Shown in pieces: positions 11,049 through 59,942 of a DNA stretch of 64,000 nt. The notes under the pieces were generated by a model. That model ran no database searches. It was not told the origin of the DNA and was given only the letters and a program-made list of their open reading frames with translations. Location of the stretch: positions 62,001-126,000 of the forward strand of contig JAPPLJ010000025.1 in assembly GCA_028819475.1 (NCBI GenBank). Reading direction: 5' to 3'. The first letter of the stretch is position 1, and every line of letters starts with the position of its first letter. Source of the stretch: Rhodospirillaceae bacterium (GTDB lineage Bacteria > Pseudomonadota > Alphaproteobacteria > Bin65). The translations under genes and the position numbers were made by a program.

Positions 11049-11682
11049 GGGCGATCCTTTCAATGCTCAGCAGGCGTCCGCCCGGATGGGTGACGCTGTC
11101 GAATTGCGTGATCGCCATTTTCCAACATTTAGTAGCTGAAATCAATTCTTTCTCAACATTTTGTCCCTTGAGGAGCAAAAACTGCGGGTTATCCACAGAC
11201 CAGCCGCTCGCCAGATCGAGCAGGTCCGGCAGCGGCGCCAGCGCCCGGGCGGTCACGACATCCGCTTCCGGCCGCGCCGGGCCCCGCGTGACGTCTTCGA
11301 TGCGCGCGGCGAGCACCGCGACATCGGCCGACAACTCCGCCGCCGTTGCCGAAAGAAACGCAGCCTTCCGCGTATCGGCTTCGATCAGCGTCACGTCCAG
11401 GTCCGGCCGCAGCAGCTTCAGGACCAGGCCGGGAAATCCCGCGCCGCTGCCGAGGTCGACGACGCGGCGCGCGCCCTTGCGCAGATGGACGGCGAGCTGG
11501 GCGCTGTCGGCGAAATGGCGCCGCCAGATATCGTCCAGCGTCGACGCCCCGACCAGGTTGATCCGGCGCTGCCAGCGACGCAGCGCCGTTTCGTAGCGGA
11601 CGAACCGCGCGCATGTTTCACGTGAAACACCGAACGCGGCGGCGAAGTCCTCCGGCCCGTAGCCGGTCCTGGGTCCGGGCAT
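11035..11682 (-). CDS. rsmG: 16S rRNA (guanine-N7) methyltransferase RsmG
   Basis: A 215-aa SAM-dependent methyltransferase (GidB) that makes m7G527 in 16S rRNA. The SAM motif VVDLGSGAGFPG is at about 74-85, with family motifs RRINLVG, WRRHFADS and FLLLKGQN in their normal places. It starts 37 nt after the mnmG stop and overlaps the parA start. Codons 19-23 are written inside a perfect parS sequence at 11614-11629, and an exact DnaA-box match lies at 11189-11197, so the gene body also carries replication and segregation signals. Confidence 0.97.
11189..11197 (+). other. exact DnaA-box match inside rsmG
   Basis: The nonamer TTATCCACA matches the DnaA consensus exactly and falls in the 3' part of rsmG, where it encodes part of SVDNPQ on the other strand. 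One exact match could arise by chance or from codon needs. It is one of only two exact copies I found in the window; the other is at 59710-59718. Confidence 0.4.
11614..11629. other. parS site within rsmG
   Basis: A perfect 16-bp parS palindrome, TGTTTCACGTGAAACA, identical to the Spo0J/ParB consensus. It is read through as codons for VSRET near the RsmG N-terminus. It lies about 0.6 kb upstream of parA and 1.4 kb upstream of parB, in the same operon. Confidence 0.96.
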
Positions 11683-13685: not shown

Positions 13686-13701
13686 TGTTTCACGTGAAAC
13701 A
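13686..13701. other. parS site upstream of mnmG
   Basis: A second perfect copy of TGTTTCACGTGAAACA, intergenic, 82 bp upstream of the mnmG start and about 2.1 kb from the parS inside rsmG. The two sites bracket mnmG and are the likely nucleation points for ParB in this region. Confidence 0.96.
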
Positions 13702-13752: not shown

Positions 13753-14022
13753 TCCGCCGCCCCCGGCCGGCCCGGCTCACCAAGACAGACCGGTCTATAT
13801 TCTTGCATTTTTTTCGCCCCCGAGCCGCTTTCCCGGCCAAAAATCCGCAGAAATCCACCATTCCCGCCAGACGGCCGCGCGCAAGCGGCGAAGTCCTGTG
13901 CATAATTTCCCAGATCGCCACCATCAGACGGCCACGCGAATGGGGCAGCAAGGCCGCGGCGCCGGCGGGGCGGTTTTCGGCAAGCGTCGCGATTCGTCAT
14001 GTCCGGCATTTCCGCTCTTCTT

Positions 14023-14120
14023 GCCGCCCCGGACCCGATCCGGGCCCAAGTGACGACCCGAACGGCATCAGCCTGCGGGCCCTGGGCCCCGGATCGTCGC
14101 TGCGCTCCGTCCGGGGCGGC
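14023..14120. repeat. intergenic palindrome family 1, copy A
   Basis: Begins GCCGCCCCGGAC and ends GTCCGGGGCGGC, with inner arms GATCCGGGCCC and GGGCCCCGGATC around a variable centre. One of six copies in the window; the others are at 15895, 18353, 24133, 32673 and 38841. The right arm carries the extra block GTCGCTGCGCTCC common to the family. Confidence 0.85.
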
Positions 14121-14319
14121 ACAGGGGAGTGGCGGTGAGTCCGGAATGTGTCAGGAAATGTCATGATCCGTCATGTTGCTCCGTTTTCTGCCAAATTCCG
14201 GGCCTCAATGTGCCCCTCCCGCAAGGGAAAGGGGTTCGAGCGGCGCCCTTGGGGGATGCGCTGCAATGTCCTGTTTTGTCATGATCGGCCGCGATCAGCC
14301 GTCCGCTTCGCCCCAACCC

Positions 14320-14440
14320 GTCATTCCGACCGGAGCCGCCCACAGGGCGGTGAAGCGGAGGCATCTCGGCGCGATATCCTGGATCCTGTTGTCGGGATCG
14401 AGCCGAGATTCCTCCACTCGCTTCGCTCGGTCGGAATGAC
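14320..14440. repeat. intergenic palindrome family 2 (GTCATTCCGACC arms)
   Basis: Outer arms GTCATTCCGACC at 14320-14331 and GGTCGGAATGAC at 14429-14440 are perfect reverse complements. Inner segments (GGCATCTCGGC and GCCGAGATTCC) also pair in part. The RNA would fold into a long hairpin. Only one copy lies in this window. Confidence 0.75.
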
Positions 14441-14520
14441 GGCGTGGGGATTGCGCCCGGTCGCGATGACGGTCGAAGGGACGGGCGGTTGGGAAAACGG
14501 CGGTGACGGGACGGGAAAGC

Positions 14521-15717
14521 TCACGGTCCGGCAGGAGCCGCCGGCTCGCCCGCGGGGCCGGCCGGCGCAAGGCCGGCATCGCGGCCGGGCGCGCGGTCCA
14601 TTGCCCCGATCTCGGCCTGGGCGGCGGCGAACCAGTCGTCCTCGGGTGCGGCCGGCGGTTCGTCTTCCGGATCGTGCATCGCGTCGTCCGCCGGGGCCTG
14701 CGCCGCCTCTTCCGGCGCCGGATCGCCCCCGGCCGGTTCGTCCGCCGGTTCGTCCGCGGAGCCGGCCGGCGATTCGGCGGGCGGCGATTCGGCGTAACGC
14801 GCCTTGATTTCCTCGTCGATTGCCAGTTCCGCCTCGCTCCACGGGTCTGTCGGCCGGTCGCCGGCACGCATATCCTGCATCCAGAAGCTCTCGGACAGGT
14901 CGACTTGCGCATCGTCGCCCGGCTGGAGGTCCGGGCCGGTCCGCGGCACCGGGAGCCCGCCGCGCGCGTAGCGGTCTTCCGGCGGATCGTCGGCCACCGG
15001 CCCGGCTTCCGGCGCGGCGTCCGCCACGGCCTGCAACACGGTCGGCCTCGGCGCGGTTACGAGCGCGCGCCCGAGCGCCCGGCGGTCTTCGATGGCGTTC
15101 TCAAGAATCCGGTCGGCTTCCGCTTCGGGTCCGGCGTCGGCACTGAGCTCCGGCACCGGCAGGCCGGCGGCGATCCGGCGGCGCGCACGCTCGCGCTCCG
15201 CCCGGTCCCGCCCCAGGCGCACCGCGCCGGCCAGCGGCCCGTCCGGCAGGCCGATCCCCGCGGTGGCGTCGAGGTCGGCATCCGGCGTGCCCAGTTCGCC
15301 GAACTCGTCCTCGCAGGGCACCGGCCACAGCGCGCCCCGGTTGGCCTCGCCCCCGCCGCCCAGGCCCGAAAGCGCCTCCTGCTTCCGGATGACCAGATAC
15401 ATGAGCCAGGCCGAACCCCGGGCGGCGGCCGCATCCCAGGCCTGTTCGAGGCGCGCCAGCAGGATCCGCGCCTCCGCCCGCTCCGCCTCGCGCCAGAGCA
15501 TGCGGATCTGGCGCACCCGCGCGACGATATGGGGCCGCTGCAGCAGCGCGTGGCCGGTCTGCCGCGCCGAGGCCGGGGCATAGCCGGACCGGCGCGCGGC
15601 ATCGGCGGCGTTGCCGGTCGCCACGAAATGCCGGCAGAAGGCCTCCTGCCGGCTCGACAGGACGGGATAGCGCTCCTCCACCGGATCAATCTCAGGCACT
15701 GGATAGGGATGCGTCAT
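14521..15717 (-). CDS. terminase small-subunit-like DNA-binding protein
   Basis: A 398-aa protein from ATG 15717, which has AGAGGA seven bases upstream. Residues 19-72 resemble the helix-turn-helix of phage terminase small subunits (SSRQEAFCRHF, then [21 protein letters not shown] and HIVARVRQI). The rest is unlike phage proteins: a helical middle, then an acidic Pro/Ala/Glu-rich tail from about residue 230. No large terminase, portal or capsid gene is nearby. It may be a domesticated DNA-binding protein. It sits alone between the conserved genes mnmG and mnmE, behind a promoter region much richer in A+T than its surroundings. Confidence 0.75.
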   Translation of the reverse strand: MTHPYPVPEIDPVEERYPVLSSRQEAFCRHFVATGNAADAARRSGYAPASARQTGHALLQRPHIVARVRQIRMLWREAERAEARILLARLEQAWDAAAARGSAWLMYLVIRKQEALSGLGGGGEANRGALWPVPCEDEFGELGTPDADLDATAGIGLPDGPLAGAVRLGRDRAERERARRRIAAGLPVPELSADAGPEAEADRILENAIEDRRALGRALVTAPRPTVLQAVADAAPEAGPVADDPPEDRYARGGLPVPRTGPDLQPGDDAQVDLSESFWMQDMRAGDRPTDPWSEAELAIDEEIKARYAESPPAESPAGSADEPADEPAGGDPAPEEAAQAPADDAMHDPEDEPPAAPEDDWFAAAQAEIGAMDRAPGRDAGLAPAGPAGEPAAPAGP

Positions 15718-15736
15718 GATAATCCTCTGATTTTCG

Positions 15737-15783
15737 CTGTTTGTTCTATATCGGTAAGTACGCACTGTTTCCTATATTGTCAA
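15737..15783 (-). promoter_or_regulatory. candidate promoter with direct repeats, terminase-like gene
   Basis: On the minus strand a perfect -35 hexamer TTGACA (15778-15783) is followed after 17 bp by a weak -10, TACTTA (15755-15760). Two direct repeats, ATATAGGAAACAG (15765-15777) and ATATAGAACAAACAG (15737-15751), start 26 bp apart and flank the -10. This suggests a repressor operator, possibly for the gene's own helix-turn-helix protein. Confidence 0.5.
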
Positions 15784-15894
15784 GTATAATTTCTTTGATC
15801 AGGTAACAAAGTGCGCTGAAGCCCCGCCCCTTGAGGAATCCTCTGCGAAACGCCGCCCGGTGGGCGGCACAATCCTGCGTGCACCTTCATCCTT

Positions 15895-15998
15895 GCCGCC
15901 CCGGACGCCCCGGAGGGGCGATCCGGGGACCAGAGCCGACCCGAAAGCCTTCGGCCTGCGACTCTGGTCCCCGGATCGTCGCTCCGCTCCGTCCGGGG
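15895..15998. repeat. intergenic palindrome family 1, copy B
   Basis: Starts GCCGCCCCGGAC, ends GTCCGGGG, with inner arms GATCCGGGGACCAGAG and CTCTGGTCCCCGGATC. It fills much of the 411-bp gap (15718-16128) between the terminase-like gene and the secreted Cys-rich protein gene; nothing else in that gap is recognised apart from the candidate promoter. Confidence 0.85.
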
Positions 15999-16128
15999 AA
16001 GCAATAGAGGGCGGCTGGTGGGCCGTGCACGCCTGCGGCGTTCGCCGTTCGACGGCGCCGTTGCACGACGCGCGCCGATACCGCTACGGTTGCCGCAGCG
16101 GGAATGCGCCGATCGATTGACACGGAAG

Positions 16129-16977
16129 ATGAAGATGCTGCGAATCTGCGCCGCGCTGTCTGCGGCTCTGCTGGTTCCGGGGATGGCCTCCGCCAAGGAG
16201 TTGAAGCCGAAATTCGGCGATATCGACGGCGTCTACTACACCGACGTTGCCGAGAACCGCGAGGCCTGCCGGCAGGCGGTCCAGCGCAAAATTTACCTGT
16301 GCAGCCAGAACACGAGCTTCGTGAGCAACACGGAGGACCGGAAATATCCGGGCTGCCTGCCGCTCTTCCGGCGGCAGGCCGGGATCTGCGCGGACCATTT
16401 CCGCAGCGAGGCGTACAAGTGCCAGGGTGCCGGCTCCGTGCGGATCGCGGACTTCACCGGCTTCGCCTGCACGGTGACGGCGACCGTCGTCGAAGAGGGC
16501 GACGAGCCGGAGCGCCGCGAGCCGGAGGGCGGGACGGGCGCCCGGGAGCCGGCGCAGCAGGACCGCGGCGCGGTGGCGGGCCTGTCGCCGAAATGCGCGG
16601 GAATGGGCAAGGGCGCGAAGTGCTGGCAGGAGCTCGCCAACAGGCGTCGCTGCTACATATACAACCGCTTCAACGTTCCATCCGTACCGTTCACCTGGTC
16701 GGGCGCCTGTGAAGGCGGCGTCGCCGCCGGGCGGGGTACGCTAGTCCGGAAGAATCCCCGCTACTCCAATGAAGGCACAGGCAATCTCATGCGCGGCAAG
16801 AAGCACGGCCGGTGGGTCGAGCGCACCCGCGGGAGTAAGGCCTGGGACAAGGTAGTCTGGGAAATCGATTATGCGAATGGCGTGTATCACGGCCAAGTGG
16901 TCAGCCGCGAGGGCAGTTTTTGTCTGGTTACCCGGTACAGCCATGGGAAGAAGACATCCAAAACCAAGCCCTGCTGA
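16129..16977 (+). CDS. secreted cysteine-rich protein with MORN-like C-terminus
   Basis: A 282-aa protein from ATG 16129; ATG 16135 is an alternative, and GGAAG precedes both. A signal peptide of about 22 residues ends GMASA. The mature part has 12 cysteines, most in the first two thirds, with an acidic Glu/Arg/Pro/Gly-rich linker at about 125-150. The C-terminal 90 residues show spaced glycines and aromatics like MORN repeats: WSGACEGGVAAGRGTL, GNLMRGKKHGRWVER and YANGVYHGQVV. I do not recognise a named family. A periplasmic or extracellular, disulfide-bonded location is likely. It stands alone on the plus strand and converges on mnmE 22 nt away. Confidence 0.8.
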   Translation: MKMLRICAALSAALLVPGMASAKELKPKFGDIDGVYYTDVAENREACRQAVQRKIYLCSQNTSFVSNTEDRKYPGCLPLFRRQAGICADHFRSEAYKCQGAGSVRIADFTGFACTVTATVVEEGDEPERREPEGGTGAREPAQQDRGAVAGLSPKCAGMGKGAKCWQELANRRRCYIYNRFNVPSVPFTWSGACEGGVAAGRGTLVRKNPRYSNEGTGNLMRGKKHGRWVERTRGSKAWDKVVWEIDYANGVYHGQVVSREGSFCLVTRYSHGKKTSKTKPC

Positions 16978-16999
16978 CCGCGCCGCGGCCCCCGCGTGC

Positions 17000-18322
17000 C
17001 TATTTCCCGATGCAGAAATCCCGGAAGATCAGGTCGAGCAGGTCCTCGACGTCGGTGCGGCCGATCAGCCGGTCCATGGCGCGCAGCGCAAGGCGCAGGT
17101 CTTCGGCGGTGAGTTCCGCCCCGGTGGCGGCGAGCGCGCGCTCCAGCGCGGCTGACGCGTCCTCCAGGCATTGCCGATGGCGCAGCCGGGTCAGCGCCGG
17201 GTGTTCGGCCGCGCCCATCGCCGCCGTCACCCGGTCTTCGATCGCCGCCAGCAGCCGGCCGATGCCGTCGCCGGTGCGGGCGCTGACGCCGAGCGGCACA
17301 TCCGGCGGCGCGGGCGCGAGATCGGTCTTGTTGGCAACGGTCAGCACCCGGTCCGGACCCGCCCCGACATCCGCCGACGGCCCGGCGGCGGGCGCCGAGG
17401 CGTCGACGACGTGGAGCACCAGATCGGCATTGCCGGCCTGGAACCGGGCGCGGGCCATGCCCTCCCGTTCGATATCCCCGGCGGTTTCGTCGTCCCGCAG
17501 CCCGGCCGTATCGGCGAAGATGACGGCGTAGCCGGCGAGATCGGCCCGCACCTCGATCACGTCGCGCGTCGTGCCCGCGGTTTCGGCGACGATGGCGACG
17601 TCGCGCTGCGCGAGCCGGTTGAGCAGTGACGACTTGCCGACATTGGGCGCGCCGACGATGGCGACCCGGTAGCCCTCGCGCACCATGCGGCCGCGGTCCG
17701 GCGCGGCGAGCCAGCCGGCCAGCCCGGCGGCGACCGCTTCGACCGCGGGCCGGACCTGCGCCGCCAGGTCGTTCGGCAGCGCCTCGTCGGGAAAGTCGAT
17801 CGCCGCCTCGAGCCAGGCCAGGCTGCGGCGCAGCTGCGCGCCCCAGTCGGCGCAGCGCTCCGCGAACGCGCCGTCCATCTGGCGCTGGGCCTGGACGCGC
17901 TGGGCCTCGGTCTCGGCGTCGATCAGGTCGGCCAGCCCCTCGGCCTCCGACAGGTCCATCCGGCCGTTCTCGAAGGCGCGGCGGGTGAATTCGCCGGGCT
18001 CGGCGGGGCGGACGCCGTCGAGGGCGCACAGGACCGACAGCAGCCTGCCGACGACCGCCGGGCTGCCGTGGACCTGGAATTCCGCGACATCCTCGCCGGT
18101 GACCGAGCCCGGACCGGGTAGCCAGAGCACGAGCCCGCTGTCGACGGTTTCGCCCGCCGCGCCGTCGCGCAGTACGCGCAATGCCGCCCGGCGCGGCGGC
18201 ACGTCGGCGCCGGCGAGATGCCGGATACAGGCCGCCGCGCCCGGCCCCGACGCCCGGATCACCGCGATCCCGGCCTTCCCCGCCCCCGACGACAGGGCGA
18301 CGATGGTGTCCCGCGGAGTCAT
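17000..18322 (-). CDS. mnmE: tRNA modification GTPase MnmE
   Basis: A 440-aa potassium-dependent GTPase (TrmE) that works with MnmG on wobble uridines. The N-terminal tetrahydrofolate-binding domain runs to about 115. A helical domain holds the inserted G domain (about 215-365), with GAPNVGKSS, a DTAGL element and NKTD. The C-terminus is FCIGK, retaining the conserved Cys (C437). The ATG at 18322 fits the family N-terminus DTIVALSSGAGKAGIAVIR. The gene is leftward, 266 bp from the divergent DUF255 gene, with a family 1 palindrome between them. Confidence 0.98.
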   Translation of the reverse strand: MTPRDTIVALSSGAGKAGIAVIRASGPGAAACIRHLAGADVPPRRAALRVLRDGAAGETVDSGLVLWLPGPGSVTGEDVAEFQVHGSPAVVGRLLSVLCALDGVRPAEPGEFTRRAFENGRMDLSEAEGLADLIDAETEAQRVQAQRQMDGAFAERCADWGAQLRRSLAWLEAAIDFPDEALPNDLAAQVRPAVEAVAAGLAGWLAAPDRGRMVREGYRVAIVGAPNVGKSSLLNRLAQRDVAIVAETAGTTRDVIEVRADLAGYAVIFADTAGLRDDETAGDIEREGMARARFQAGNADLVLHVVDASAPAAGPSADVGAGPDRVLTVANKTDLAPAPPDVPLGVSARTGDGIGRLLAAIEDRVTAAMGAAEHPALTRLRHRQCLEDASAALERALAATGAELTAEDLRLALRAMDRLIGRTDVEDLLDLIFRDFCIGK

Positions 18323-26324: not shown

Positions 26325-27371
26325 CTATGCGCCGCCGGCCGCGAGCTGGCAGCCCGTCCGGTCCGCGGGGCACAGCCGGCCGCCGCTCTCCGCTTCGAGG
26401 CCGCCGCGCGCCAGGATGGTTTGCACCATGTCGGCAAGACCGCCAATGAAAGCAGGGTGGGTGCCGACCGCCGGTGCCCGGAGATAGGCCGGCACCCCGG
26501 CGTCTTCCGCCACCTTGCGGTATTCGATGTCGAGCTCGACCAGGGTTTCGGAATGTTCCGAGACGAAGGCGATCGGCGCAACCAGCACGGGCTTGCTCTC
26601 AGCGCCCGCACGGCGGATTTCATCTTCGGTCGACGGCCCGATCCATTTCAGCGGCCCGACCCGGCTCTGGTAGCAGACGGTGCTGTCGGCGGCGGCATCA
26701 CCAAGCGCTTCGGCAATCGCGGCAGCCGTCCGCTCGACCTGCCAGCGGTAGGGATCGCCGGCCGCGATCACCCTCTCCGGCAACCCGTGGGCCGAAAACA
26801 GGATGCGCGGCTGGTCTCCGTCATGGCCGGTCAGGGTTTCCGAGATCCTGTCCGCCATCGCCGCGATGAAGCCGGCGTTGACCGGGTAACAGCAGATGCC
26901 GCCGACCGCCGGGCCGAGTCCGGCCGAAGCGGCCGCGCCATTCCATTCCCGCACCGACGAGGCCGATGTCGTCGTCGAGAATTGGGGATAGAGCGGCAGC
27001 AGGACCGTGCGCCGGACGCCCCGCTGCGCCAGATCGCGCGCCACCGCCTCCGCTCGGCGGCCCCAATAGCGCATCGCGACATGGACCGACGGTGGCTCCG
27101 CCGCGCCGAACCGGTCCGCCAGCGCCGTTTCCAGCGCCGCAGCCTGGGCGTCGGTTTCTTCGTGGATCGGCGATTTGCCGCCGAGATGGACGTAGATGTC
27201 CTGCGCGACCGGCGCGCGGCGGCCCGCGATCAGCTTCGCCAGCAGCCAGCGCACCGGCTGCGGCGCGCCGACGATCGCCCGGTCGTTGAACAGGTTGAAC
27301 AGGAACGGCTTTACGGTGTCCGGCGCGGTCGGGCCGCCGAGATTGAACAGGATGACGGCAGTATCGCTCAC
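26325..27371 (-). CDS. hemH: ferrochelatase
   Basis: A 348-aa enzyme that inserts Fe2+ into protoporphyrin IX. It begins at a GTG (27371) whose GTGA overlaps the hemE stop. Family motifs are in order: VILFNLGGP, LLPLYPQFSTTT, the catalytic His in FSAHGLPERV, CYQSRVGPLKWIGPST and AFVSEHSETLVELDIEY. The C-terminal segment contains two Cys (GGRLCPADRTGC), as in some bacterial ferrochelatases that carry a 2Fe-2S cluster, but the full four-Cys set is not obvious. Confidence 0.96.
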   Translation of the reverse strand: MSDTAVILFNLGGPTAPDTVKPFLFNLFNDRAIVGAPQPVRWLLAKLIAGRRAPVAQDIYVHLGGKSPIHEETDAQAAALETALADRFGAAEPPSVHVAMRYWGRRAEAVARDLAQRGVRRTVLLPLYPQFSTTTSASSVREWNGAAASAGLGPAVGGICCYPVNAGFIAAMADRISETLTGHDGDQPRILFSAHGLPERVIAAGDPYRWQVERTAAAIAEALGDAAADSTVCYQSRVGPLKWIGPSTEDEIRRAGAESKPVLVAPIAFVSEHSETLVELDIEYRKVAEDAGVPAYLRAPAVGTHPAFIGGLADMVQTILARGGLEAESGGRLCPADRTGCQLAAGGA

Positions 27372-28396
27372 GCCGCGCCCCGCACGGCCGCTACCAGTTC
27401 CGCGACGTGATCCGGCGGCGTCTGCGGCACGATGCCGTGGCCGAGATTGAAGATATGCAGACCGCCGGCCAGGCCGGACACGATCTCCCCGATCCTTTCT
27501 TCGAGCGCCACGCCGCCGGCCGCCAGCAACAGCGGATCGAGATTGCCCTGGACCGGAACGGATTTCTGGATCGCCCGCGCCTGGGCGAGCGGGACGCCGG
27601 TATCGAGGCTGATGGCCGTGACGCCGGTCGCGGCGACGTAATCCCCGATCAGGCTGCCGGCGCCGCGCGGAAAGCCGATCACGGGCGCCGCCGGGTGCCG
27701 GGCGCGCAAGGCCTCGACGATCCGCCGGGTCGGGCCGACGACGTAGCGCCGGAACTCCGGCTCGGCCAGAACGCCGGCCCAGCTCTCGAAGATCTGCACG
27801 CAGTCCGCGCCGGCGTCGATCTGGCGCGACAGGTGCTCGACGGTTGCGTCCATCAGCATGTCGATCAGCCGCCCGAACCCCTCGGGATCGCGCCACATCC
27901 AGGCCTTGACCGTCTCAAAACTCCGACTGCTGCCGCCTTCCACGGCGTAGGTCGCCACCGTCCACGGGCCGCCGGCGAACCCGATCAGGGTCTTTTCCGG
28001 CGCCAGCGCCGCGCGGATCGCCGACACCGCCTCGTAGACCGGCGCACAATGCGCAACCGCCCGGTCCGGATCGAGCGCCGCCAGATCGCCGGCATTCCGC
28101 ACCGGGACGAGGATCGGACCGTGCCCGTCCTCGAAGCCGACGGTCATTCCCATGCCGTCCGGCACGACCAGAATGTCGGAAAACAGGATCGCCGCATCGA
28201 AATCGAAGCGCCGGACGGGCTGCAGGGTAATCTCGACCGCCAGGTCCGGCGTGTAGCACAGGTCGAGGAAGGACTCCGCGGATTGCCGCAAGCGCCGATA
28301 TTCCGGCAGGTAACGCCCGGCCTGGCGCATGAGCCAGACCGGCGCCGCCGCCGCCGGTTCGCCGGCCAGTACACGCATCATCGACTGATCGGTCAT
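27368..28396 (-). CDS. hemE: uroporphyrinogen decarboxylase
   Basis: A 342-aa enzyme that converts uroporphyrinogen III to coproporphyrinogen III. The signature PVWLMRQAGRYLPEYR is at about 20-35, with further family motifs ILFSDILVVPDGMGM, GFAGGPWTVATYAVEGG and FPRGAG. It is first of the leftward hemE-hemH-hemJ group and overlaps hemH. Its start faces the intergenic region proposed as oriC. In Caulobacter the origin lies directly beside hemE. Confidence 0.97.
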   Translation of the reverse strand: MTDQSMMRVLAGEPAAAAPVWLMRQAGRYLPEYRRLRQSAESFLDLCYTPDLAVEITLQPVRRFDFDAAILFSDILVVPDGMGMTVGFEDGHGPILVPVRNAGDLAALDPDRAVAHCAPVYEAVSAIRAALAPEKTLIGFAGGPWTVATYAVEGGSSRSFETVKAWMWRDPEGFGRLIDMLMDATVEHLSRQIDAGADCVQIFESWAGVLAEPEFRRYVVGPTRRIVEALRARHPAAPVIGFPRGAGSLIGDYVAATGVTAISLDTGVPLAQARAIQKSVPVQGNLDPLLLAAGGVALEERIGEIVSGLAGGLHIFNLGHGIVPQTPPDHVAELVAAVRGAA

Positions 28397-28889
28397 CGGG
28401 TCGGTCTGTCGGAATTCCGGTCGGGAGCCGTAACACCGCCGGGCGGTCCGTTACCCGGCGGCCAAGTTCATTATGAATCCCTTTATATAGAAAGGTTGTA
28501 GTTGTTTTTGTTGGGAAGGGGAGTCGCGGGGATTACTGGTTGATCACAGGCAACTGGATATCCCGCCCGGAAGCGCTGCCGCCGCGCGCCGATCCTGTGG
28601 AAAGCAGGGACAACCGGTCAACAGCCTGAAAGCGCCGGGAAAGGCGAGCGGCCGGCTGGGCATACTCCCGGTGCGGCGGGGGCGCCGGAGCCGGGAAAAG
28701 AAGATGCGCCGGGCAGGAAATCCACGCCGGGATTATCGGTCCCCAGCCGGAAATCCCGGTGGTGGTGACCGCGGTGTGCCGGGACAGAATTTTGCAGTCG
28801 CAGCCCGGCGGCGCCCGCGCGTATAACAGGCCCGGTTGCGCCGCAGTCCGGCGCCGCTTTTCCACAGGCTTGTCTCGCCCAATCCGACC
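28397..28889. other. candidate chromosomal origin of replication (oriC)
   Basis: A 493-bp gene-free region between divergent hemE and ppsR (the Rickettsia RP001 family), the same position as the Caulobacter origin. It has an AT-rich tract at about 28464-28513, containing the palindrome TTCATTATGAA and a TTTATATAG run, in an otherwise GC-rich setting. DnaA-box-like nonamers are TTTTCCACA (28858-28866, one mismatch) and weaker ones at 28596-28604, 28540-28548 and 28718-28726. Housekeeping genes point away on both sides for several kb. No exact DnaA consensus box is present, so the call rests mainly on gene context. Confidence 0.55.
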
Positions 28890-29789
28890 ATGAGCCGTCA
28901 CCACCTCTATCTGATCTCCGATTCGACCGGCGAGACGGTCCAGACTATCGGCCGGGCCTGCGCGGTCCAGTTCGAGCAGGTCGAGGTCGTCGAGCATCTC
29001 TGGCCGATGGTGCGCAGCCCGCGGGCCCTGGAGATCGTCATCGAGGAGTTGGAGGAGGAGCCCGGCCTGGTGCTCTATACCCTGCTCGACCGGACGCTCG
29101 CCGAAACCCTCGAAGACTATTGCAAGCGCCGGTCGCTGACCTGCGTCTCGGTGATCGACCCCTTCATCGAGATGATGGCCGCTTACTTCGGCGAAAAGAG
29201 CGGCGACATGCCGGGCCGGCAGCATGAGCTCGACGACGAGTATTTCCAGCGCATCGACGCCATCACCTATGTCATGCAGCATGACGACGGCCAGCATACC
29301 GGCAACCTCGAAGAGGCCGATGTCGTGCTGGTCGGCGTCTCGCGCACGTCGAAGACGCCGACCTCGATCTACCTGGCGAACCGCGGCGTCAAGGCGGCCA
29401 ACGTGCCGATCGTGCCGGATCAGCCGTTGCCCGAAATCCTCTTCGGCCTGACCCGGCCCCTGGTCGTCGGCCTGACCGAGGATCCGCGCCGGCTGGTCGA
29501 TCTCCGGCGCTCGCGCATGCGCCAGTCGCTCGGCGATACCGAAACCGACTACACGGATATCGATGCGGTCAGGAAGGAGGTCGCCGACGCGCGCCGGCTG
29601 TTCGGGCGCTACGGCTGGCCGGTCATCGACGTCACCCGCCGGTCGATCGAGGAAACGGCGGCGGCTATCCTGCGCCTGGTGCGCGACCGGGCCCGCCGCC
29701 TCGAGGAAGGCGCCGACGCCGACCTGCTCAGCCTGGGCCGGCCCGGTTCAGGCGCACCGGGGGGCGCACCGGGGGGCGGCGGTGGGTGA
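28890..29789 (+). CDS. ppsR: PEP synthase/PPDK regulatory protein (DUF299)
   Basis: A 299-aa bifunctional kinase/phosphorylase of the PSRP family. It switches phosphoenolpyruvate synthase or pyruvate phosphate dikinase by ADP-dependent phosphorylation and Pi-dependent dephosphorylation. The start motif HHLYLISDSTGETV and the P-loop GVSRTSKT at 149-156 are present. The C-terminal tail is Gly/Pro-rich and overlaps the maf start. It is first of a rightward run of overlapping genes (ppsR-maf-aroE-coaE-dnaQ), an order conserved beside alphaproteobacterial origins. Confidence 0.95.
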   Translation: MSRHHLYLISDSTGETVQTIGRACAVQFEQVEVVEHLWPMVRSPRALEIVIEELEEEPGLVLYTLLDRTLAETLEDYCKRRSLTCVSVIDPFIEMMAAYFGEKSGDMPGRQHELDDEYFQRIDAITYVMQHDDGQHTGNLEEADVVLVGVSRTSKTPTSIYLANRGVKAANVPIVPDQPLPEILFGLTRPLVVGLTEDPRRLVDLRRSRMRQSLGDTETDYTDIDAVRKEVADARRLFGRYGWPVIDVTRRSIEETAAAILRLVRDRARRLEEGADADLLSLGRPGSGAPGGAPGGGGG

Positions 29790-32850: not shown

Positions 32851-32971
32851 ACAATCCTTTGTGCTAACCCATTATTGTGAAACAATTTTGAAGTAATTCC
32901 CCAACCCCCTCATCCCGAGCAGGCGCGCCAGCGCCGTATCGAGGAGGCGGCCCCGTTAGAAGCGGATGCGC

Positions 32972-59695: not shown

Positions 59696-59833
59696 TTGTC
59701 CACGAACTCTGTGGATAAGTCTGTGGGACAACCTTTGGCGGCGCGGAGATTCCGCAGAATCCCGCGTCGCGGAAATCATTGCCGGTTTATTGGGCAGAAT
59801 CGCCTAACGCATTGAAAATTAATATTTATTAGG
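59696..59833. other. DnaA-box cluster and AT-rich tract, oriC-like
   Basis: In the 359-bp gap between folB and uvrC (59584-59942), an exact DnaA box lies on the minus strand at 59710-59718 (TGTGGATAA on plus). It is flanked by TTGTCCACG at 59696-59704 (two mismatches) and TGTGGGACA at 59722-59730. About 80 bp further is an AT-rich run, TTGAAAATTAATATTTATTA (about 59813-59832). Beyond it are the palindromes CGTCGCGACG (59835-59844) and ACCGGTTCTAAACCGGT (59871-59887). No gene is seen. It could be an origin, a DnaA-titration or regulatory site for uvrC, or partly a folB terminator. Confidence 0.5.
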
Positions 59834-59942
59834 CCGTCGCGACGTCGCGGTTCCGTAACGAGACTGGCAGACCGGTTCTAAACCGGTACAGGCGGCGGCT
59901 TCGGACAGCGTGTGAACAAACGGCGTAACCCACGACGCCACA

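Follow-up and report, generated by a model that had tools for sequence, protein, structure and literature searches.

The window analysed here is a 64-kb stretch of DNA (nucleotides 62001 to 126000 of contig C25, 69% GC) from a 4.48-Mb assembly consisting of 72 contigs. It includes a 493-bp gap between hemE and ppsR, two genes that are transcribed away from each other. The edges of the gap are exact: hemE starts at nucleotide 28396 on the minus strand, and the ppsR ATG, at nucleotide 28890 on the plus strand, is the start of the NCBIfam alignment. These positions bear out the limits of the gene-free region that an earlier note had considered the best candidate for the chromosomal origin of replication (oriC). 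The genes diverge over 4.1 kb to the left (hemE, hemH, hemJ, and rho) and over 3.8 kb to the right (ppsR, maf, aroE, coaE, and dnaQ), in agreement with the divergence over kilobases described in that note, and gene orientation is mixed further out. The features of this region, together with two parS sites located to its left, are the following.

11614-11629: parS site, exact, TGTTTCACGTGAAACA, identified by scanning the window
13686-13701: parS site, exact, TGTTTCACGTGAAACA, identified by the same scan
27368-28396, minus strand: hemE, the left boundary gene (TIGR01464, 398 bits)
28397-28889: hemE-ppsR intergenic gap, 493 bp, proposed oriC; the divergent flanking pair is kept class-wide and the gap holds the only match to the class module in the genome
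28464-28513: AT-rich tract, proposed DNA unwinding element, 72% AT
28475-28479: GANTC (CcrM) site GAATC within the AT-rich tract; many other alphaproteobacteria, and 6 of the 7 members of the genus, have a GANTC site in this region
28482-28535, plus strand: putative unwinding module (AT-rich end, triplet array, degenerate box 1, and box 2), matched by the R1 profile built from other genera
28496-28513, plus strand: triplet array TTG TAG TTG TTT TTG TTG, the putative DnaA-trio equivalent, which aligns with TNG arrays of other alphaproteobacteria
28518-28526, plus strand: degenerate box-1 equivalent GGGGAGTCG, which aligns with TGTGGATAA-type boxes of other alphaproteobacteria
28521-28525: GANTC site GAGTC within the box-1 equivalent, found in 7 of 7 genus members
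28527-28535, minus strand: box 2, CGGGGATTA (TAATCCCCG on the minus strand), in which GGGGAT is kept class-wide
28596-28604, minus strand: weak DnaA box CTTTCCACA, two mismatches, a 9-bp run invariant in the genus, found in 6 of 7 members
28818-28827, plus strand: conserved GTATAAC element, invariant in the genus
28858-28866, plus strand: DnaA box TTTTCCACA, one mismatch, at the right end of the gap, found in 7 of 7 genus members
28890-29789, plus strand: ppsR (COG1806/RP001 family), the right boundary gene (NF003742, 332 bits)

The AT-rich tract pointed out in the earlier note indeed has the highest AT content of any 50-bp segment in the window, and it overlaps the segment 28469-28508, which is second in a ranking of the least stable 40-bp segments. 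The one-mismatch DnaA box described at the right end of the gap is present and kept throughout the genus, and no perfect box exists between nucleotides 28397 and 28889. As for the weaker boxes mentioned in the same note, one was found, that at 28596-28604, but the number of boxes is near chance: at the rate found in the window, a length of 493 bp should contain about 0.34 boxes with at most two mismatches, and two are present, so that the gap is unremarkable by box count alone. Conservation across the genus, and not number, is what sets these boxes apart from chance. Of 66 gaps of the class, 24 have the hexamer TCCACA within the 90 bp that precede ppsR, as compared to 1.4 in shuffled sequences. 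Counting of consensus DnaA boxes was discarded as a means to find the origin because it has no discrimination, the number in the genome being equal to that of a reversed control pattern.

Other portions of the window include features of interest. The gap between uvrC and folB contains, at 59696-59718, a perfect TTATCCACA on the minus strand close to a weaker TTGTCCACG on the plus strand, in the vicinity of a second AT-rich tract (59786-59835); this pair of boxes is possibly a DnaA-regulated promoter. Another perfect TTATCCACA is located at 11189-11197 inside rsmG, about 0.4 kb from parS, and is retained at the equivalent position in each of the three genus contigs that were compared. No recognised family is encoded between mnmG and mnmE (13952-17000); this stretch varies in both its length and its content across three sister species, and it includes the most AT-rich 100 bp of the window (15714-15813). 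Dispersed short repeats, GC-rich and partly palindromic, are found at 14020-14135, 15918-16017, and 32895-32955, with 3 to 9 copies per contig in three genus contigs; they may be REP or MITE-like elements.

The location of the gap within the gene order is one shared by the class. Divergent hemE adjoins ppsR in nearly all the alphaproteobacterial loci examined, and in most of them the gap between both genes measures about 320-730 bp. The origin of Caulobacter has been mapped experimentally to the hemE-COG1806 gene pair, and that of Rickettsia has been placed there (PMC1914354), which agrees with the location between hemE and an RP001-family gene that the earlier note had given for Caulobacter. 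That note had also invoked parS sites 15-17 kb away; the two perfect sites lie 14.7-16.8 kb from the gap. parAB and parS are found within 20 kb of the gap, and in three genus contigs parS is located 12-20 kb from the module.

A side-by-side reading of alphaproteobacterial hemE-ppsR gaps permitted us to recognise a common layout near hemE, consisting of an AT-rich stretch that often includes AAGAATCTT, an array of TAG, TTG, or TGG triplets, CTGTGGATAAC or a variant of it, and CGGGGATTA. In the window the module, nucleotides 28482-28535, reads TTTATATAGAAAGG TTG TAG TTG TTT TTG TTG GGAA GGGGAGTCG CGGGGATTA. Within the genus, the 30 bp of the gap with the highest conservation are inside this module, and an 18-bp run that is invariant in the genus (28517-28534) includes part of box 2. 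A profile named R1 was built from 36 modules, all of them from other genera, and used to search whole genomes. It produced a single match in the 4.48-Mb genome, located in the hemE-ppsR gap (E 0.0125), and a single match, also in this gap, in each of three sister species (E 0.007-0.013 for these and the own genome). When the search was limited to the window only two matches were obtained, both in the gap, that of the module at 28482-28535 scoring 17.6 bits (E 0.00019). The relatives G185, G070, G156, G268, and G118, most of which contributed to the profile, have their R1 match only in the hemE-ppsR gap, and no R1 match was found in G024, whose hemE-ppsR gap is atypical. In three contigs of the genus (142-211 kb) an independent HMM ranked the site best, with about 13 bits versus 7.1 for the next one. 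Of the held-out gaps from other genera, about 93% had scores above the 99th percentile of shuffles; this figure is somewhat optimistic, since all sequences had been used to refine the alignment that supplied the held-out rows. With the HMM bus3 the result depended on the correction for composition bias: without it the site ranked first, and with it the array scored 2.8 bits and was not the top match in contig C25. The Infernal search with the R1 profile, which scored 150 of 281 first-look candidates, was given more weight than the bus3 HMM.

The basal unwinding system (BUS) consists of DnaA-trios adjoining DnaA boxes (PMC8287927; PMC10316083). We applied our version of the published trio rule to the module only, as at least three NAN trios and a DnaA box with at most two mismatches within 16 bp. 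Six of 61 alphaproteobacterial modules, and none of the seven from the genus, comply with it. The window array has fewer than three NAN trios, and the sequence that follows, GGGGAGTCG and then CGGGGATTA, provides no box with at most two mismatches near the trios, CGGGGATTA having three with respect to TGTGGATAA. On the other hand, the order and orientation are those of a BUS, with AT-rich DNA, trios, spacer, and box on one strand, collinear with the modules of other alphaproteobacteria. We have filed the window module as one that probably works like a BUS and not as a canonical member. The middle bases of the TNG triplets in the 61-module set are A in 73 cases, T in 60, G in 40, and C in 1 outside the genus, and T in 22 and A in 6 inside it. 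In B. subtilis the residue Asn187 of DnaA reads the middle adenine of the trio, and a T at that position impairs opening (PMC10721633). At the corresponding position, all 26 readable alphaproteobacterial DnaA proteins have Tyr or Phe; the genome under study has a single, intact dnaA gene, and its product has Tyr. This class-wide Tyr or Phe fits a relaxed trio code but is no proof of it. The existence of deviant DnaA-trios lacking the middle adenine had been suspected by Pelliciari et al. 2021 (PMC8287927).

GANTC sites in the Caulobacter origin have been noted before (PMC3973325). Of the 61 modules in our set, 22 have a GANTC site that overlaps the position of box 1. Without the modules of the genus the figure is 15 of 54, whereas independent shuffling of the columns predicts about 3, with the caveat that kinship inflates these counts. 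The titles and passages covered by an incomplete literature search yielded no report of this overlap as a feature of the class. A protein with a RAMA domain, a candidate CcrM-type methyltransferase, is encoded at contig C4:29760-30050, and no match to GcrA was found in the genome assembly; if GcrA is truly absent, CcrM would act here without its usual partner. We suggest, with less confidence, that methylation of GAGTC at 28521 by CcrM may affect box 1.

The earlier note had called for a search for conserved DnaA, CtrA-like, and IHF sites. The DnaA boxes are kept (7/7 and 6/7), but neither CtrA nor IHF sites can be clearly recognised. For the CtrA consensus (TTAA-N7-TTAA) the gap has a poor site with two mismatches at 28471, the counterpart of which is perfect only in the sister species G004 (L003). 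A consensus scan of the gap, in which IHF sites being degenerate must be kept in mind, revealed none with one mismatch or less; as these sites are degenerate and not universally required, their absence was not counted as a reason to withdraw the origin claim. The GTATAAC element could perhaps be the -10 region of a ppsR promoter, but this role is only a guess because a sigma-70 promoter scan found nothing, including no sigma-70 pair. An Rfam search gave nothing above threshold.

Analysis of GC skew and of skew at four-fold sites at the contig level in three genus members gave no signal, with the best positions scattered. Around the proposed origin the lineage has a near-zero GC skew; in three species its absolute value seldom exceeds 0.03 per 10 kb. 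Since the lineage has no usable GC skew, the skew test called for in the earlier note is uninformative there. In the complete genomes of the relatives G185 and G022, in which 1.2 Mb separate dnaA from ppsR, the sampled skew inflection is located 27-29 kb from ppsR, which is within the sampling resolution; in these genomes dnaA is rejected as the position of the skew switch and hemE-ppsR is favoured, i.e., the gene pair co-locates with the switch. The skew of G070 and G024 agrees with hemE-ppsR as well, but it cannot exclude dnaA because this gene is only 136-218 kb away.

The class module found once per genome and the skew switch of G185 and G022 support the gap as the best oriC candidate, and from the sequence data we consider it very probable that nucleotides 28397-28889 are the chromosomal oriC. 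By analogy with B. subtilis and Caulobacter, we infer that DnaA binding, strand opening, and initiation would take place at this gap. DnaA would bind the double-stranded sites to the right of the array, namely box 2, the two weak boxes (28596 and 28858), and perhaps also the degenerate box 1. Starting from this anchor, a DnaA filament would grow to the left along one of the strands of the array (28496-28513) and pull open the AT-rich tract (28464-28513), where helicases would be loaded and from which two forks would depart in opposite directions. Less firmly, the DnaA of this genus may read single-stranded TNG/TTGT repeats rather than strict TAG trios.

The gap could instead be only the promoter region of two divergent genes, with the conserved blocks acting as transcription signals and the origin located elsewhere. 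Divergent genes require promoters, and the GTATAAC element is conserved near ppsR. However, the promoter scan was empty, a class-wide module with the order and orientation of a trio array lies next to hemE once per genome, and the skew of the relatives switches at hemE-ppsR, all of which makes this explanation very improbable. In many bacteria oriC is found at dnaA, which in this case lies beyond the window on the same contig, some 46 kb to the right of the gap (C25:136955). An origin at that gene would represent this common arrangement, and the skew of G070 and G024 is unable to tell both places apart; nevertheless, that of G185 and G022 speaks against dnaA, and the region near dnaA in the own genome has no significant match to the module, leaving a still slimmer chance for this location. 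An origin at 59.7 kb, in the uvrC-folB gap, the alternative named in the earlier note, would account for the perfect TTATCCACA at 59710-59718 and the nearby AT-rich tract, in a region with 96% identity in the sister G001. There is no module match there, TTATCCACA occurs eight times in the genome and is no commoner than the reversed control pattern, and the G003 contig lacks an equivalent of this gap; the probability that this is the origin is close to nil.

A different question is whether the hemE-ppsR gap, taken as the origin, opens as that of E. coli does, with box-bound DnaA recruiting single-stranded TTGT motifs and the triplet register being irrelevant. The DnaA complex of E. coli binds TTGT/TTATT motifs (PMC10316083), and the genus array has 2-3 TTGT/TTAT motifs per 36 bp, compared to 0.3-0.6 expected from the rate in the gap. 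Against this possibility, the array is collinear with TAG-rich arrays that adjoin boxes in other families, and no DNA-bending IHF site was found. We regard such an opening as possible but rather unlikely; it concerns the mechanism only and is compatible with the identity of the gap as oriC. Returning to the trio-like opening, we tentatively propose, as one possibility for the Alphaproteobacteria, a relaxed code composed of TNG trios and a DnaA with Tyr or Phe, together with a fusion of box and GANTC that in many lineages might let CcrM gate the opening. The genus would be an extreme case, with few middle adenines and the trio-proximal box replaced by GAGTC.

These results place a probable origin in an uncultured genus with high GC content and with contigs devoid of GC skew, and the module profile should help with other alphaproteobacterial draft genomes. 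Natural trios free of the middle adenine, accompanied by a matching change in DnaA, make the specificity of this protein testable with existing assays. The overlap of box 1 and GANTC suggests a simple route from DNA methylation to origin opening.

The location of this proposed origin is the expected one for the group, as known from the textbook cases of Caulobacter and Rickettsia, and the version of the module is unusual. The Caulobacter crescentus Cori and the Rickettsia prowazekii oriC (PMC1914354) share with the window gap the flanking genes, an AT-rich element, DnaA boxes of mixed quality, and GANTC sites; the gap differs in having fewer and weaker DnaA boxes and no clear CtrA or IHF sites. 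The basal unwinding region of B. subtilis (PMC8287927, PMC10721633) has the same order of AT-rich DNA, array, spacer, and co-oriented box, and the trios of both have G at the proximal captured position. Unlike in B. subtilis, the middle base in the window is mostly T and not A, box 1 has been lost with GAGTC in its place, and the DnaA position of Asn187 is occupied by Tyr. With the unwinding element of the E. coli oriC and its single-strand TTGT/TTATT motifs (PMC10316083), the window gap shares repeated TTGT in the proposed single-strand target; it differs in that no IHF site was found in it and in having the triplet register and the collinearity of trio arrays.
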